Source of the DNA: Bryobacteraceae bacterium
GTDB lineage: Bacteria; Acidobacteriota; Terriglobia; Bryobacterales; Bryobacteraceae
Length of the DNA stretch: 64,000 nt
Reading direction: 5' to 3'
Assembly: GCA_030041495.1 (NCBI GenBank)
Contig: JASHNT010000084.1
Coordinates: 1-64,000 of the forward strand
Shown: positions 21,471 through 64,000 of the stretch, in pieces
Numbering within the stretch: the first letter of the stretch is position 1
Layout: every line of letters begins with the position of its first letter
Made by a program: the position numbers and the translations under genes
The notes under the pieces: model-generated
What the model saw: only the letters and a program-made list of their open reading frames with translations
The model's database searches: none
What the model was told of the DNA's origin: nothing

Positions 21471-21580
21471 TGTCAGGCTCCGGGCTTCGTGCAACGGGCG
21501 GCTGCGAACCCCGCCAGGTCCGGAAGGAAGCAACGGTAGTGGTTTAACTCGTGTGCCGCGGATCACCCGGGGTCTGGCAT
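21471..21580 (+). ncRNA. ffs: Signal recognition particle RNA (4.5S-type)
   Basis: The segment contains the near-invariant SRP core GCCAGGTCCGGAAGGAAGC (about 21513-21531), with the GGAA tetraloop and the asymmetric loop bound by Ffh. Flanking strands pair: TGTCAGGCTCCGGG at the 5' side with the 3' strand ending GGGGTCTGGCA (allowing G-U pairs), giving a hairpin of about 110 nt, like 4.5S RNA. It has no Alu domain. It lies 13 bases before dnaX, an arrangement seen in several phyla, and is on the opposite strand from the sensor kinase gene. The exact ends are estimated. Confidence 0.93.
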
Positions 21581-58721: not shown

Positions 58722-61241
58722 ATGCGCGCTTTGTGGCAGGACCTGGTCTACGGACTCCGGATCCTGATCAAGAAGCCGGCGTTCACGGCCGTTGCGGCGC
58801 TGTCGCTGGCGCTGGCCATCGGCGCCAACACCACCATCTTCAGCCTGGTCAATGCCACGCTTCTGGGCCCGATCCCGTATCAGGATCCCGGCCGCGTCGG
58901 CATCATCTGGAGCTATCCCAATCAGCGTCCGGACGCCCGCGGCAGCCTGACCGTGTCGGACCTGCGGCTGCTGGCGTCACAGGCGCAGTCTTTCGAATCC
59001 GTGGGGGCAATGTTCTCCAACACGCACAACCTGAGTGCGACCGCGGCCGGGGCCGGCGACAACGGCCAGGGCGCCGAGCAGCTCAACACGGAGCAGTTCA
59101 CCGCAAACCTGTTTACGCTTCTCGGGGTTGCGCCGCATCTGGGCAGGGTGTTCACGGCCGACGAAGATCGCGACACGGCTCCGGCGCCGGTCGTGGTTTT
59201 GAGCGACCGCTTCTGGCAGCGCCATTTCAACGCTGATCCTCAAGTCATCGGGAAGACCATTCGGATCGACGGCGAGCCTAACACCATCATCGGCGTGATG
59301 CCTCCGGGATTTGACTTTTTCTCGAACAATACCGATATCTTCATCCCGGCCGGATTTTCCAGCGCACAAATCAGTAGCACGGCCCGCTTTATTGCCGTCG
59401 TTGTCCGCGCGAAGCCGGGAATCGATTGGCGGGCGGCGCAGGATGAGGTAAAGCGGCTGGGCATGCAATACGCGGCGGCCTTTCCGGACCGCGACAAGGG
59501 CCGCAGCCTGAAGCTCGAGCTGATTCGCGACGCCATCAACAGCGACCTGCAGCGCGCTCTCCTGATCCTGGAAGGCGCGGTGCTGTTCGTACTTCTGATC
59601 GCCTGCGCGAACGTCGCGAACCTGCTGTTGGCGCGCGCGTCCTCACGCGAAACGGAAATCGCGATCCGGACAGCGCTCGGCGCGGGGAGAAGACGGGTGG
59701 TCCGGCAGTTGATGACGGAAAGCGTACTGCTGGCGCTGATCGGCGGCCTGGGAGGGATTTTTATCGGCTGGGGTGCACTGCGGCTCTTTGTTGCTGCTAT
59801 TCCCGAAAATTATGGCGGCCTTGACCGTGCGGCCATCGATGCTCGCGTGTTTCTGTTCACTGCCGCGATTTCCGTTCTCACTGGCGTCTTCTTTGGAGTC
59901 GTGCCGGCACTTCAGAGTTCCAAAAGCGACCTCACCGTTTCGCTCAAGGAAAGCGGCAGGAGCGGCTCGACGGGACGCGGCAAGCTGCGATTCCGGAGCG
60001 CATTGGTGGTGGCACAGATCGCCTTGTCTCTGGTACTGCTGATCGGCGCCGGACTGACCATCAACAGCTTCCTGCACCTGGTGCACAACAAGCTTGGCCT
60101 GGATCCAACGCGCGTCCTGAGCTTCAACTTTCGCATTCCGCAGAACCAGTTGATGAAGCAGGTGGGCCGCTTCCGCGGCGTGGGCTTGTGGGAGATCTTT
60201 CCCACTGTCGAGCCCGCCTACGATCGCATTCTGGAGCGCATTCGCGCCGTGCCGGGAGTTGAATCGGCGGCGGTCGCCGACGTTCCTCCGATGGGCGGAG
60301 GCGGAATGGGGATGGCGTTTCTGATCGAGGGCCGCCCGAATCCCGCGACCGACGCAGAGCGCAATGCCCAATCCGGCCGCTACATCGCGATCTCGCCGGA
60401 TTACTTCCACACATTGAGAATCCCCCTGATTCGCGGGCGCGACTTTAACGATCGCGACACCGCCGGCGCGCCTCCAGTGATCGTCGTCAACCAGGCTTTC
60501 GTGCGGCGCTTTTTCCCCAACGAGGAACCGGCCGGCAAGCGCATCACGCTGGATTTCGTACCGGAGGAGCAGCCGCGTGAAATTGTCGGCGTGGTGGCGG
60601 ATGCGCGCGTCAGCCCGTATGAGCGAACGCCCGCGCCGACCATCTTCGTTCCACACGTGCAGCAGACGGCGCACTGGCAAGGACCGTCGTGGAATTTCCG
60701 GTCGTCGCAGTATTTTATCCTCAAAACCAGTGGTGACCCGACGCGCCTGGTGCCGGCCCTCCGCCGGGCCGTGGCGGAGATCGATCCGGACAAGCCCATC
60801 TCCGAAATCCAAACCGTGGATCAGGCGGTAGACCGGTCGGTGCTGGGAGATCGGCTGTACATGCTGCTGCTGGGCTCGTTCGGCATGATCGCGGCGATTC
60901 TGGCGGCGGTCGGCATTTTCGGGGTTATCTCCTACGCAGTGGCTCAGCGGACGCAGGAAATCGGAATCCGCATGGCGCTGGGCGCGGGCCGCGGCGAGAT
61001 CTTGAGACTGGTGCTGTTCCAGTCGGCTCTGTTGATCGCCCTTGGCATTGTGCTAGGTCTGGGCGGCGCGTTCGGGTTGACTCGCCTGCTCGCCAATGAC
61101 CTGTTCGGCGTCACCGCAACGGACGCGACCACGTTCACAAGCGTAACCGCGCTGCTGGCTTTGGTCGCGCTTCTGGCTACGGTAATTCCTACGCGCCGGG
61201 CGACTCGCGTCGACCCCACCACTGCGCTGCGGTATCAGTAG
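58722..61241 (+). CDS. ADOP-family ABC transporter permease, second copy
   Basis: An 839-residue permease of the same duplicated MacB/FtsX type as at 6489: first TM opener PAFTAVAALSLALAIGANTT, FtsX helices near residues 280-415, a second opener near residue 430 (VVAQIALSLVLLIGAGLTI) and C-terminal FtsX helices near 700-830 with RTQEIGIRMALGAGRGEI. No ATP-binding subunit is adjacent. It is convergent with the PAN-like gene. The substrate is unknown; such permeases are thought to use an ATPase encoded elsewhere. Confidence 0.9.
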   Translation: MRALWQDLVYGLRILIKKPAFTAVAALSLALAIGANTTIFSLVNATLLGPIPYQDPGRVGIIWSYPNQRPDARGSLTVSDLRLLASQAQSFESVGAMFSNTHNLSATAAGAGDNGQGAEQLNTEQFTANLFTLLGVAPHLGRVFTADEDRDTAPAPVVVLSDRFWQRHFNADPQVIGKTIRIDGEPNTIIGVMPPGFDFFSNNTDIFIPAGFSSAQISSTARFIAVVVRAKPGIDWRAAQDEVKRLGMQYAAAFPDRDKGRSLKLELIRDAINSDLQRALLILEGAVLFVLLIACANVANLLLARASSRETEIAIRTALGAGRRRVVRQLMTESVLLALIGGLGGIFIGWGALRLFVAAIPENYGGLDRAAIDARVFLFTAAISVLTGVFFGVVPALQSSKSDLTVSLKESGRSGSTGRGKLRFRSALVVAQIALSLVLLIGAGLTINSFLHLVHNKLGLDPTRVLSFNFRIPQNQLMKQVGRFRGVGLWEIFPTVEPAYDRILERIRAVPGVESAAVADVPPMGGGGMGMAFLIEGRPNPATDAERNAQSGRYIAISPDYFHTLRIPLIRGRDFNDRDTAGAPPVIVVNQAFVRRFFPNEEPAGKRITLDFVPEEQPREIVGVVADARVSPYERTPAPTIFVPHVQQTAHWQGPSWNFRSSQYFILKTSGDPTRLVPALRRAVAEIDPDKPISEIQTVDQAVDRSVLGDRLYMLLLGSFGMIAAILAAVGIFGVISYAVAQRTQEIGIRMALGAGRGEILRLVLFQSALLIALGIVLGLGGAFGLTRLLANDLFGVTATDATTFTSVTALLALVALLATVIPTRRATRVDPTTALRYQ

Positions 61242-61252
61242 CGCGGTCAAGA

Positions 61253-62317
61253 TCAACGCGTCGGGTCGCCGGGGCGGCCCATGCTCCACGGCCCGGAAAC
61301 TCCTGCGGCGTCAGTCCAGGTTCCTTCCAGCCTGTTCAGCGGAGTCATGGTCAGGTCCAACGTTCCATAGCTGCTGTCCGATCCGTTCTTCCAGTTCAAG
61401 GTGCCGTGCAGAGTCTCTCCGTCGAAAGTGCCCTTTAGGTTTCCTGAGACGCCTGGCAGCTTGGGGTCGGAATAGGTTCCGGTGATGTTATTCCCCTTCT
61501 GCACGATCTTGGTGACAGCGCCGAACTGATTCACCCACTCGCCAGCGATAGCCTTTGTATCGGTGGCGGGGGCGGGTTTCGCCAATTTCGAAGGCGCCGG
61601 AGCGGCTTTCGCGGTTTTTGTGGGCGCCGGAGCCGCGGTCGCAACCGGCGCGGGCGGAGGGGGCGGGGTAGCTTGGGGAGTGATGGTCTTCAACGCAGAC
61701 AGGCAGCATTCATTGGGTAGCGACTCCGTGATTTGACTCTTCAGGTCGCACATGGCGGTGGGATTCCCGTTTCCCGCCGGATAATACGTGTAGCCCTGGC
61801 ACGCCGCGTTCAACTTGCATTGCGCCTGGCAGGCTTGCGCGGCTTGTGCAGGCTCGCCCGCGCTCCCCGCAGCGAAGCTGCCCAGCGATACTCCGGTGAG
61901 AGATGTGCCAGAGACGATCTTGAAATCGATTTCGGGTTGCTGGGGCGCCGTCTTGATCAAGCAGAACGAAGCCGGCTGCACCGCGTTCCCGCTCGAATCG
62001 TAAGACCAGAGCGTGACATAAAGACTCTTCCCAGGCGGAAGGCCGGCGAGCTGACCCTGCGTTCCGCTGATCAGCGAAGAATCGCCGGCACTGCTGTCGC
62101 CGATACTGGGACCCAAAAGCAGCCGGTAGTTCGGCGTGTTGGTTCCCTGATTCCACGTGAACGTGGCCGGATCTTGCGCGACCGCTTGATCCGCAGCCGG
62201 GCAAACCAGCCGCGCGGCAACCGGAGTTGTGGCCGTCGAGGCGCCGGGGTTGGGCGCGTTCTGGGCAACCGCGGACATCGCGGCAACCAGAATCAAGAGC
62301 GGCGTTCTAAGCGGCAT
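61253..62317 (-). CDS. Exported protein with Fn3-like, PAN/Apple-like and beta-barrel domains
   Basis: A 354-residue protein from ATG 62317 (signal peptide MPLRTPLLILVAAMSAVAQ). Residues about 35-125 resemble an Fn3-like fold (DPATFTWNQGTNTPNYRLLL...YVTLWSYDSSGN). Residues about 140-210 are PAN/Apple-like with conserved Cys (CQAQCKLNAACQGYTYYP, then AMCDLKSQITESLPNECC). A Pro/Ala/Lys-rich linker (about 218-255) leads to a C-terminal beta-barrel-like domain (GNNITGTYSDPKLPGVSGNL, GTWTDAAGVSG). It may bind a ligand at the cell surface. Confidence 0.75.
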   Translation of the reverse strand: MPLRTPLLILVAAMSAVAQNAPNPGASTATTPVAARLVCPAADQAVAQDPATFTWNQGTNTPNYRLLLGPSIGDSSAGDSSLISGTQGQLAGLPPGKSLYVTLWSYDSSGNAVQPASFCLIKTAPQQPEIDFKIVSGTSLTGVSLGSFAAGSAGEPAQAAQACQAQCKLNAACQGYTYYPAGNGNPTAMCDLKSQITESLPNECCLSALKTITPQATPPPPPAPVATAAPAPTKTAKAAPAPSKLAKPAPATDTKAIAGEWVNQFGAVTKIVQKGNNITGTYSDPKLPGVSGNLKGTFDGETLHGTLNWKNGSDSSYGTLDLTMTPLNRLEGTWTDAAGVSGPWSMGRPGDPTR

Positions 62318-62443
62318 CGCGTGCACCTCTTTCGTCCATTATTGAACGATTCCGGCGTTGCCCACAGCCGGGCCCTGTGGATGTAAACTATTTCGAGTAC
62401 GCGCGCAGGTTGCCGCGCAAACAGACGTCGATAAGGAGCGAAT

Positions 62444-63307
62444 ATGTGCGATCAAGATCATTCTGAGCAGGACTTACAGGATTACGAAGCTCGTGGTTTG
62501 GTGACGCGAAAACAATTCGGCGTCATGTTGGGGGCGGGTATCGCGATGATGCTGCCGAAGGTGGCCAACGCGGCCGAGGTGACGGAGACTGATGTGAACA
62601 TCAAAACTCCGGACGGCACCTGCGATGCTTACTTCGTGCATCCTTCCAGCGGCACGGCTGCGGGAGTGCTGGTGTGGCCGGACATCTTCGGGCTGCGGCC
62701 GGCGTTTCGACAGATGGGCAAGCGGCTGGCGGAATCGGGTTATTCGGTTCTGGTGGTGAACCCGTTCTACCGGACCCAGAGGGCTCCGACGGCATCTAAG
62801 GGCGCTGCGACTCAGATCCAGGAATTGATGCCGCTGGCGCGAAGCCTGAATGAGACCACGAACGTGACGGATGCGAAAACGTTCGTCGCATGGCTGGATC
62901 AGCAGCGCCCGGTCGCCAAGAATCGCAAGATGGGCACGCAGGGATACTGCATGGGAGGCTCAATGGCGTTTCGCACCGCGTACGCCATGCCGGACCGCGT
63001 CGGCGCCGTGGCCTCCTTCCACGGCGGCAACGGACTGGTGACCAATATGCCGAACAGTCCGCACCTTGAGGCCGCTAAGACCAAGGCGCAGTTTCTGGTC
63101 GCAATTGCGCAAAACGACGATATGACCGCCCCCACCGAGAAGGACGTGATGAAAGAGACCTTCGGTAAGGCGGGTTTGCAAGCGGAGATCGAAGTGTACC
63201 CCGCCATGCACGGCTGGTGCCCGCCGGATTCCGGCGTCTACAGCGAGCCTCAGGCTGAGAAAGCCTGGAGCCGTCTGCTGGCGCTGTACGGCAAGGCGCT
63301 GGCCTGA
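62444..63307 (+). CDS. Exported dienelactone hydrolase-family protein
   Basis: A 287-residue alpha/beta hydrolase. RGLVTRKQFGVMLGAGIAMM is a signal-like segment after a 22-residue N-terminal stretch, suggesting a Tat or membrane-anchored protein. The family triad is visible: Cys in GYCMGGSMAF (about residue 171), Asp in IAQNDDMTAP (about 226) and His in PAMHGWCPPDS (about 254). The cysteine nucleophile marks the dienelactone hydrolase class; the substrate is unknown. GGAG lies seven bases upstream of its ATG. Confidence 0.88.
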   Translation: MCDQDHSEQDLQDYEARGLVTRKQFGVMLGAGIAMMLPKVANAAEVTETDVNIKTPDGTCDAYFVHPSSGTAAGVLVWPDIFGLRPAFRQMGKRLAESGYSVLVVNPFYRTQRAPTASKGAATQIQELMPLARSLNETTNVTDAKTFVAWLDQQRPVAKNRKMGTQGYCMGGSMAFRTAYAMPDRVGAVASFHGGNGLVTNMPNSPHLEAAKTKAQFLVAIAQNDDMTAPTEKDVMKETFGKAGLQAEIEVYPAMHGWCPPDSGVYSEPQAEKAWSRLLALYGKALA

Positions 63308-63317
63308 GCTGCTAAGG

Positions 63318-63406
63318 AACGGCCCGCAAAACGGAGCCTGGCCGCGGTCGATGGAGGCGGTTCCTCTGATGTTTCGAGGGCCGCGACCGGCCCTTTGCGG
63401 GCTGTT
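63318..63406. other. 89-nt structured imperfect palindrome
   Basis: A 13-bp outer stem (AACGGCCCGCAAA at 63318-63330 with TTTGCGGGCTGTT at 63394-63406, one G-U) encloses an inner stem of nine pairs with a two-base bulge (63340-63350 with 63384-63392) and a small GAGG/CCTC hairpin. There is no T-run, so it is not a standard terminator. It could be a structured leader of the 63478 gene, an ncRNA or a REP-like repeat. Confidence 0.6.
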
Positions 63407-63477
63407 GGGCGCGCCGGGATTCGGAGCGTTTGGCAGGCGCTCAAGTCCGGCGCATTTGTGCGTCTGGAGGACCTAAA

Positions 63478-64000
63478 ATGAATGTGAAACTTTCGGTGGC
63501 TCTGCCGGCGATTACCGCTCTTGCGGCCTTCACATTGGCGCTCGATCCCAACGCCGCGCTCGCCCAGAACAACGGAGGGCAAGGGCGCGCAGGACAACAG
63601 GCTCCTGTGCCGGGCCAAGGCAGGGGAGGACGCCGCGCTCCTCCGCCGATTCTGGGACCTCCTCCGGGCGTACAGCCTTTGCCCATCGACTTGTTCACGT
63701 CCAAGAATTTCTACAAAGACAAAGATTCGTGGATGGATAAGCGCTACTACCGCTGCAACACGCCGCGGCTTCTCTCCGAGATGTGGAACCAGCAGCGTAT
63801 GGGCTCCAATCCGCCTACGTCGGCGTCCTGGGGCAACTGCGATGACGATCTGAAGCGCGAAAGCATCCTAAGCCCGTATCCATACAAGACGGCGAAAGAG
63901 CATTACGAAGCACTGCTGGCCGCGGCGAAGGCCAAGGGCGGGCCGACCGTCTACACCAAAGCGAATGTGCCGGACTGGGACGGCTACTATCAGCGTGATA
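63478..64000 (+). CDS. Exported protein with Gly/Gln/Arg/Pro-rich segment, cut by the window end
   Basis: The ATG at 63478 has GGAGG eight bases upstream and opens a signal peptide ([19 protein letters not shown]). A low-complexity segment follows (about residues 31-67: [20 protein letters not shown], then Pro-rich), before a normal-looking domain: [40 protein letters not shown] and [21 protein letters not shown] do not recognise the family with certainty; it resembles exported acidobacterial proteins of unknown function. The 3' end lies outside the window. Confidence 0.8.

Follow-up and report, generated by a model that had tools for sequence, protein, structure and literature searches.

Gene-less palindromes that move about bacterial genomes have close described examples, and these are the natural point from which to consider our subject, an 89-nt palindrome at 63318-63406 of a 64,000-nt stretch of DNA (hereafter the window, meaning that whole stretch) from a Bryobacteraceae bacterium (contig JASHNT010000084.1 of assembly GCA_030041495.1). 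The Rickettsia palindromic elements (RPEs) are, according to PMC10969869 and PMC3733652, palindromic, without genes of their own and found in frame inside unrelated protein genes, and the family to which our palindrome belongs shares all three traits. It differs from them, on a comparison of descriptions and not of sequences, in belonging to another phylum, in a length of ~93 nt against ~150 bp (PMC10969869), in having no consistent counterpart of the CGTC tag that PMC3733652 reports for R. conorii RPEs, and in being mostly intergenic, arranged in head-to-tail arrays and equipped with a linker complementary to its loop. The GTAG- or CGTC-tagged repetitive extragenic palindromes (REPs) of PMC3733652 are likewise palindromes with compensatory stem changes, mostly intergenic and sometimes in frame in genes, DnaE2 included; here, in contrast, tags are few, the unit is ~93 nt long and stacks head to tail, and G-T pairs are few, whereas they are said to be frequent in GTAG REPs. 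REPs in general are short palindromes (20-40 bp) present in many copies between genes, and our family is multi-copy and mostly intergenic but has a ~93-nt unit, although short forms with a ~44 period do exist. Members of the IS200/IS605 insertion sequence (IS) family carry, beside a short motif resembling an insertion site, a bulged hairpin in subterminal position, an arrangement that our unit shares both with their ends and with the REPs of REP-associated tyrosine transposases (RAYTs), but no Y1 transposase gene stands alongside in the loci examined, and copy number does not follow Y1 number. Finally, the enterobacterial repetitive intergenic consensus (ERIC) and other bacterial miniature inverted-repeat transposable elements (MITEs) are also gene-less and dispersed, at 70-300 bp (PMC3733652, PMC10969869), but the unit described here has no terminal inverted repeats at its ends, and counts of three enzyme families revealed no parental IS.

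The window's hairpin is very probably an intergenic copy, old and diverged, of a mobile palindromic element ~93 nt long that is non-autonomous and has been spreading in the Bryobacteraceae, and on our best reading the element represents a new, RPE/REP-like family of mobile palindromes. No gene lies within the unit; its copies are many and dispersed, their number differs between related genomes, and they insert in frame into genes, stack head to tail and keep their hairpin pairing. That mobile palindromes enter genes in frame is already known, from Rickettsia and from tagged REPs; the present family is large, acidobacterial and mostly untagged, with no RAYT found beside it in the loci examined and with recent-looking spread in some genomes. 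Repeats in Acidobacteriota are mentioned in PMC12306157 and PMC3174227, whose available portions do not characterise this palindrome, and no title or abstract opening that we found describes the family, a coverage that leaves out most subscription journals and does not establish absence from print. The family could be compared across genomes to learn what enzyme mobilises hairpins of this type and whether inserts that keep the reading frame become lasting parts of proteins, and annotators should be warned of 30-31-residue inserts in acidobacterial proteins.

Copies, spread and insertion into genes

Searched with BLAST, the own genome (G000; 6.12 Mb, 144 contigs) has the stretch at further places, with E down to 1.7e-11, and the core 16-mer GCMCAACGGAGCCTGG, allowing up to two mismatches, gives 42 matches there (21 per strand) against 6 for its backward control. 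From 30 fetched pattern loci, 18 copies with a visible partner arm were chosen and aligned by MAFFT without being fitted to structure (alignment A1), and the covariance model R1 built from them leans, through that choice, towards copies with this core. In the own genome R1 finds 51 places at E<=1 and 46 at E<0.01, and 28 of the latter are additional to the 18 building copies. A sequence-only reading of the window, made before any search, had listed a REP-like repeat among its options, and the many copies found genome-wide show this to have been right in kind.

Beyond the own genome, R1 at E<=0.01 is positive in 15 of 41 genomes, namely the own genome and 14 of 22 further genomes from the genus (six of which have just one match), and in none of the 18 outside it. 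At the stricter E<=1e-6, 10 of the 23 genus genomes are positive, and copy number runs from 0 to 47 within the genus. A survey of the order at E<=1e-5, which scored no more than 19 candidates in each genome and so gives copy counts as lower bounds, is positive in 38 of 200 genomes, all 38 in the window's family, and in 18 of 75 genera. An exact pattern scan of one genome per species (84,980 species) gives 77 stretches, a lower bound since the exact core was demanded, and 74 of them lie in records with acidobacterial titles (Bryobacterales, Bryobacteraceae, Terriglobia, Acidobacteriia or Acidobacteria); viral contigs yielded 0 stretches with this exact, and narrow, pattern. Two true copies (L152 and L154) stand in one metagenome-assembled genome titled Acidimicrobiia (VFZE01), by title distant from the other hosts, for which transfer, mis-binning or mislabelling may be the reason. 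A match in Curtobacterium (L144) is taken as chance, since the frame it falls in is coding, with a high coding score, and the match itself scores 19.6 bits.

Insertion can be read directly at two gene sites, where three palindromic inserts, all in frame as in RPEs, were checked against insert-free homologues. The first is in an own-genome gene of the DUF1592/1588/1585 type (PF07631, PF07627, PF07624), in which 111 nt separate two conserved codons and the insert (L039) takes up 93 nt; 15 distinct homologous genes found by tblastn, from ten other genomes plus one own paralogue, have 18 nt (11 genes) or 21 nt (4 genes) at this site. Thirty such loci had been fetched, and 17 could be read on both sides, one being the own locus and two covering a single gene. 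The own genome holds a large family of these DUF1592-type cytochrome-domain genes, in which one such protein has 38 matches, counted as pieces and not as genes. The second site lies in what would be a gene for a second DNA polymerase III alpha-type protein, probably DnaE2-like, a label we use because most genomes also hold a distant homologue, about 30% identical. Here the own genome carries an insert of 90 nt and a relative (G008) one of 93 nt, in opposite orientation but at the same place between ALNSL and RRDALW (L145/L208, L047/L207), and the flanks of the G008 insert repeat ALNSLAG. Over 23 genomes this site has the insert in 2 and reads without it in 18; judging by match coordinates, G006 and G022 have no space for it, and G002 has no close homologue.

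Copies at separate loci of one genome can be 94-98% alike while their flanks are 31-33% alike (for example L124/L130 and L115/L134); pairs of this kind in the JASHRP genome reach 90% at best. Long-form neighbours in head-to-tail arrays lie 84-95 nt apart (15 spacings), and three arrays (L104, L115, L134) mix subfamilies. A short hairpin form (GCGCACAACGGAGCC...GGCCCTGTGCGC) makes up direct-repeat arrays with a period of ~44 and near-identical spacers at L120, L126 and L105. Some insertions are old: one element is common to four genomes (L074, L194, L199, L200), after a putatively YajQ-like gene, and copies also stand 3' of a presumably GAPDH-like gene in both the own genome, as a tandem pair (L269, C132), and G008 (L270, C131).

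For genomic context we used a gene finder trained on the window (57 genes, 92% coding), with which 119 of 129 collected elements were classified: 79 are intergenic, 30 overlap a predicted gene and 10 lie at contig ends (79 of 109 intergenic when the ends are left out). The flanking genes of the 79 are both on the element's strand in 29 cases, both opposite in 25, divergent in 13 and convergent in 12, so that intergenic copies have no strand preference. Among the 30 overlapping items, which include the Curtobacterium match, some ten others sit well inside a gene, while the rest overlap predicted starts or ends. The idea of the sequence-only reading that the palindrome might be a regulatory leader is not supported as a general role, the copies being consistent neither in strand nor in where they lie with respect to genes; for this one copy such a role would be possible but unlikely.

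The hairpin and its family anatomy

In the window the 89 nt form a long imperfect hairpin, as the sequence-only reading had proposed, with 13-nt arms that are 92% complementary and include one G-T pair. The + strand folds at -50.3 kcal/mol (z -3.6; 1 of 200 shuffles as low) and the - strand at -46.6 kcal/mol (z -4.0; 0 of 200), whereas a 126-nt fold reaches only z -1.5 (+) and -2.1 (-), with 12 and 8 of 200 shuffles as low. Folding energy alone is thus modest evidence outside the 89 nt, and the homologous copies elsewhere are the stronger evidence that the palindrome is real. The parts are as follows.

63314-63406 (+): the mobile unit, ~93 nt (linker, hairpin and 3' end), from the R1 match, with probable ends
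63312-63320 (+): 5' linker CTAAGGAAC, family consensus CTTCTAAGGAACTC, from the sequence and flank consensus
63318-63330 (+): outer arm, 5' side, from the fold and arm complementarity
63331-63339 (+): asymmetric stretch ACGGAGCCT, with unpaired AC (63331-63332), A (63335) and T (63339), from the fold
63340-63349 (+): inner stem, 5' side, from the fold; a covarying helix
63356-63365 (+): loop segment GGCGGTTCCT, 9/10 complementary to 63315-63324 (linker and stem foot), from a complementarity search and a family-wide test
63379-63393 (+): inner stem, 3' side, plus CCGGCCC, the partner of the asymmetric stretch, from the sequence, fold and A1
63394-63406 (+): outer arm, 3' side, including the unit's 3' end, from the fold, arm complementarity and flank consensus

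The ends of the unit were placed from the flank consensus of 76 single copies, from within-genome alignments and from the 90-93-nt inserts at the two genes. The palindrome occupies the spacer between a dienelactone-hydrolase (DLH) gene (62444-63307; PF01738, E 2.6e-35) and a gene from ~63478 that matches no Pfam family at E 1e-5, and one minus-strand open reading frame (63250-63618), not predicted as a gene by our gene finder, runs across it. R1 matches the window at E<=1e-4 only at 63304-63414 (E 1.8e-18 in the own-genome search, for a copy that helped to build the model), and there is no second strong copy within the window, the best other BLAST match being 26.5 bits.

Across the family, a linker with the consensus CTTCTAAGGAACTC leads into a long hairpin with bulges, whose core reads GCACAACGGAGCCT...GGCCCTGTGC, and the unit closes with a 3' end resembling TTCT; its main form can be written [CTTCT]AAGGAACTC - outer stem - CACA - AC - GG - A - GCC - T - inner stem + loop - GGC CC - TGTG - outer stem - CTTCT. 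The outer stem varies among copies (GCCGGC, GCCCGC, GCTCGC, CGC), the flank consensus places a linker of ~13 nt before the stem, and the consensus of the 76 single copies fades 5' of CTTCT and past GGGCTTCT. None of the unpaired bases (AC, A and T) varies in the 18 A1 rows, themselves picked by this core.

The sequence-only reading had named a lack of conserved pairing in relatives, together with a missing transcript, as the result that would tell against its interpretation, and as to pairing what the copies display is the opposite, since their pairing covaries. In A1, 17 cells have changes on both sides of a pair, against 4.7 when shuffled and 5-8 in slid versions; in A2, where 96 matches from 89 sources were fitted to the model, there are 239 such cells against 78.9 shuffled and 18-42 slid, and the covariation score is 0.288 against 0.083. 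G-U pairs are scarce, at about 24 of ~1,929 standard pairs, which argues that pairing is maintained at the level of DNA rather than RNA. Replication-based correction of imperfect palindromes could hold the arms complementary without any selection, yet it would be expected to erase the bulges; that they often persist suggests recognition.

A possible route of movement, weighed against other readings

How might such a unit travel? It is possible, although we would put it somewhat below an even chance, that the element moved by way of a folded single-stranded hairpin. An enzyme supplied in trans would then recognise this hairpin, probably by its asymmetric bulges, and would insert the unit at TTYT-like sites; a site of this kind would be remade by the unit's own 3' end, and the remade site may be what gives rise to head-to-tail arrays, with the element presumably maintained as a selfish one. 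The left and right TTYT are identical in 5 of the 9 copies with both sides visible. The window's own copy most likely does nothing specific beyond forming a hairpin between the DLH gene and the next gene.

Several observations weigh against this account of a mobile palindrome. It moves the unit with a putative trans enzyme, and none of three enzyme families tracks the unit: over the 23 genus genomes, copy number has a Spearman correlation of 0.15 (p 0.49) with counts of PF01797 (Y1_Tnp), 0.31 (p 0.15) with PF01548 (IS110) and 0.36 (p 0.09) with PF00078 (reverse transcriptase), next to 0.38 (p 0.08) with genome size, all in draft genomes whose completeness affects the counts and without correction for three families. 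The three verified inserts leave three footprints and no single target-site duplication rule, as the own DUF1592-type copy shows a CTCC-like repeat at best, an imperfect duplication of ~20 nt accompanies the G008 DnaE2 copy, and the own DnaE2 copy has no clear footprint. Nor are the bulges universal: among ten printed alignments, from 12 own copies that R1 found, three (L057, L060, L063) have ACGGA swapped for a longer insertion with a small inverted repeat of its own, CCCGCAGCGGG, an own-genome subfamily that also includes L002, and four (L059, L062, L065, L066) are without both the T bulge and the GCC that goes with it; the invariance in A1 partly reflects how copies were selected. Fitting to structure flatters the A2 counts, unlike those of A1, and the low G-U count owes something to high G+C and exact-core selection as well. 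The gene finder behind the context counts is rough. Lastly, at the YajQ-like locus the element differs less between genomes than its flanks do (7-9 of 80 against 10-25 of 100 positions), and this slower divergence could reflect use by the host.

Among other readings, a classical REP or REPIN mobilised by a RAYT is unlikely, even though a bulged palindrome that is intergenic, multi-copy and sometimes in frame in genes agrees with the description of REPs in PMC3733652. GTAG is present at the stem foot of a few copies (in 5 of 113 it overlaps the stem by one base), but GTAG or CGTC occurs within 3 nt of the foot in just 9 of 113 copies and directly outside it in 0 of 113, and the ~93-nt unit and its head-to-tail arrays do not fit. 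RAYTs flanked by REPs are reported in PMC2817692, whereas here Y1_Tnp matches occur in 16 of the 23 genus genomes, with 58 loci listed and only one match in the own genome, and 30 of these 58 loci, searched with R1, have no copy beside them, the best being five at E 0.13-0.64 within ~1.5 kb. Genes between or beside close element pairs (C8 and C95 of the own genome, C131 and C453 of G008) include no transposase apparent from their first 70 residues, which were not put through a Pfam search.

We consider a MITE derived from a DDE-type insertion sequence equally improbable. Size, non-coding nature, mobility and dispersal would suit the word in its broad use, but the unit has no terminal inverted repeats, its consensus ends CTTCT-AAGGAACTC and GGGCTTCT not being inverted repeats of each other, and shows no consistent target-site duplication at its three verified inserts; no parental IS appears in the counts of the three enzyme families, which do not include DDE transposases.

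More doubtful still is a functional structured RNA, be it a trans-acting small RNA or a 3'-UTR element, present at many loci, rather than a selfish repeat. The strong covariation, the slower divergence at the YajQ-like locus and a loop-linker complementarity that could act as a switch all speak for it; the few G-U pairs, the absence of strand preference, the in-frame copies inside genes in both orientations and the range of 0 to 47 copies in one genus speak against it. The sequence-only reading had thought of an acidobacterial non-coding RNA such as Acido-1, which the Rfam search does not support: there is no gathering-level match here, and the six matches at E up to 10 in 63200-63560 do not include Acido-1 or anything else of relevance. 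An HDV-like ribozyme and an integron attC site were set aside on general anatomy alone. That the palindrome is an ordinary transcription terminator or a chance GC-rich hairpin, as its start 10 nt past a stop codon might suggest, is hardly credible given a homologous family with covariation and, as the sequence-only reading correctly observed, no T-run, a scan of 61000-64000 having found four terminator-like sites, none at the palindrome, and no promoter-like site.

Loop and linker

Loop and linker are complementary over ~8-11 nt, in the window between 63315-63324 and 63356-63365, and they differ jointly between subfamilies, AGGAACTC going with GAGTTCCT and AGGAACAC with GTGTTCCT. Over the 113 of 129 collected elements that have a core of 60-80 nt and two or more outer pairs, a set without the Curtobacterium match, linker-loop pairing averages -10.7 kcal/mol, against -9.6 +- 0.22 with loops permuted among copies (lowest of 200: -10.2) and only -8.2 with shuffled linkers. 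With loops permuted within genomes, loci of unassigned genomes forming one group, the mean is -10.19 +- 0.19, and 1 of 500 permutations is as low as observed. Inside single genomes the excess is weak, with 94 (own), 8 (JADLBD), 97 (JASHRP) and 67 (JAEUQD) of 500 permutations as low, and the signal is mostly shared consensus with some covariation between subfamilies. A true pseudoknot, in which linker and loop pair while the long stem stays closed, was set aside by a geometric argument without computation.

This complementarity raises the very improbable idea that the hairpin loop is a guide, so that insertion sites would be chosen by pairing of the loop to a linker-like target, making the unit a self-guided mobile palindrome of less than 100 nt. 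Insertion beside its own copies would then produce head-to-tail arrays of mixed subfamilies, and sites that resemble the linker, for example GAACTCGC of the DnaE2-like gene, might also be entered.

Far from the palindrome, positions 21478-21575 (+) of the window encode a bacterial small SRP RNA (RF00169, 72 bits, E 4.6e-14), the sole Rfam gathering-level match in the window.
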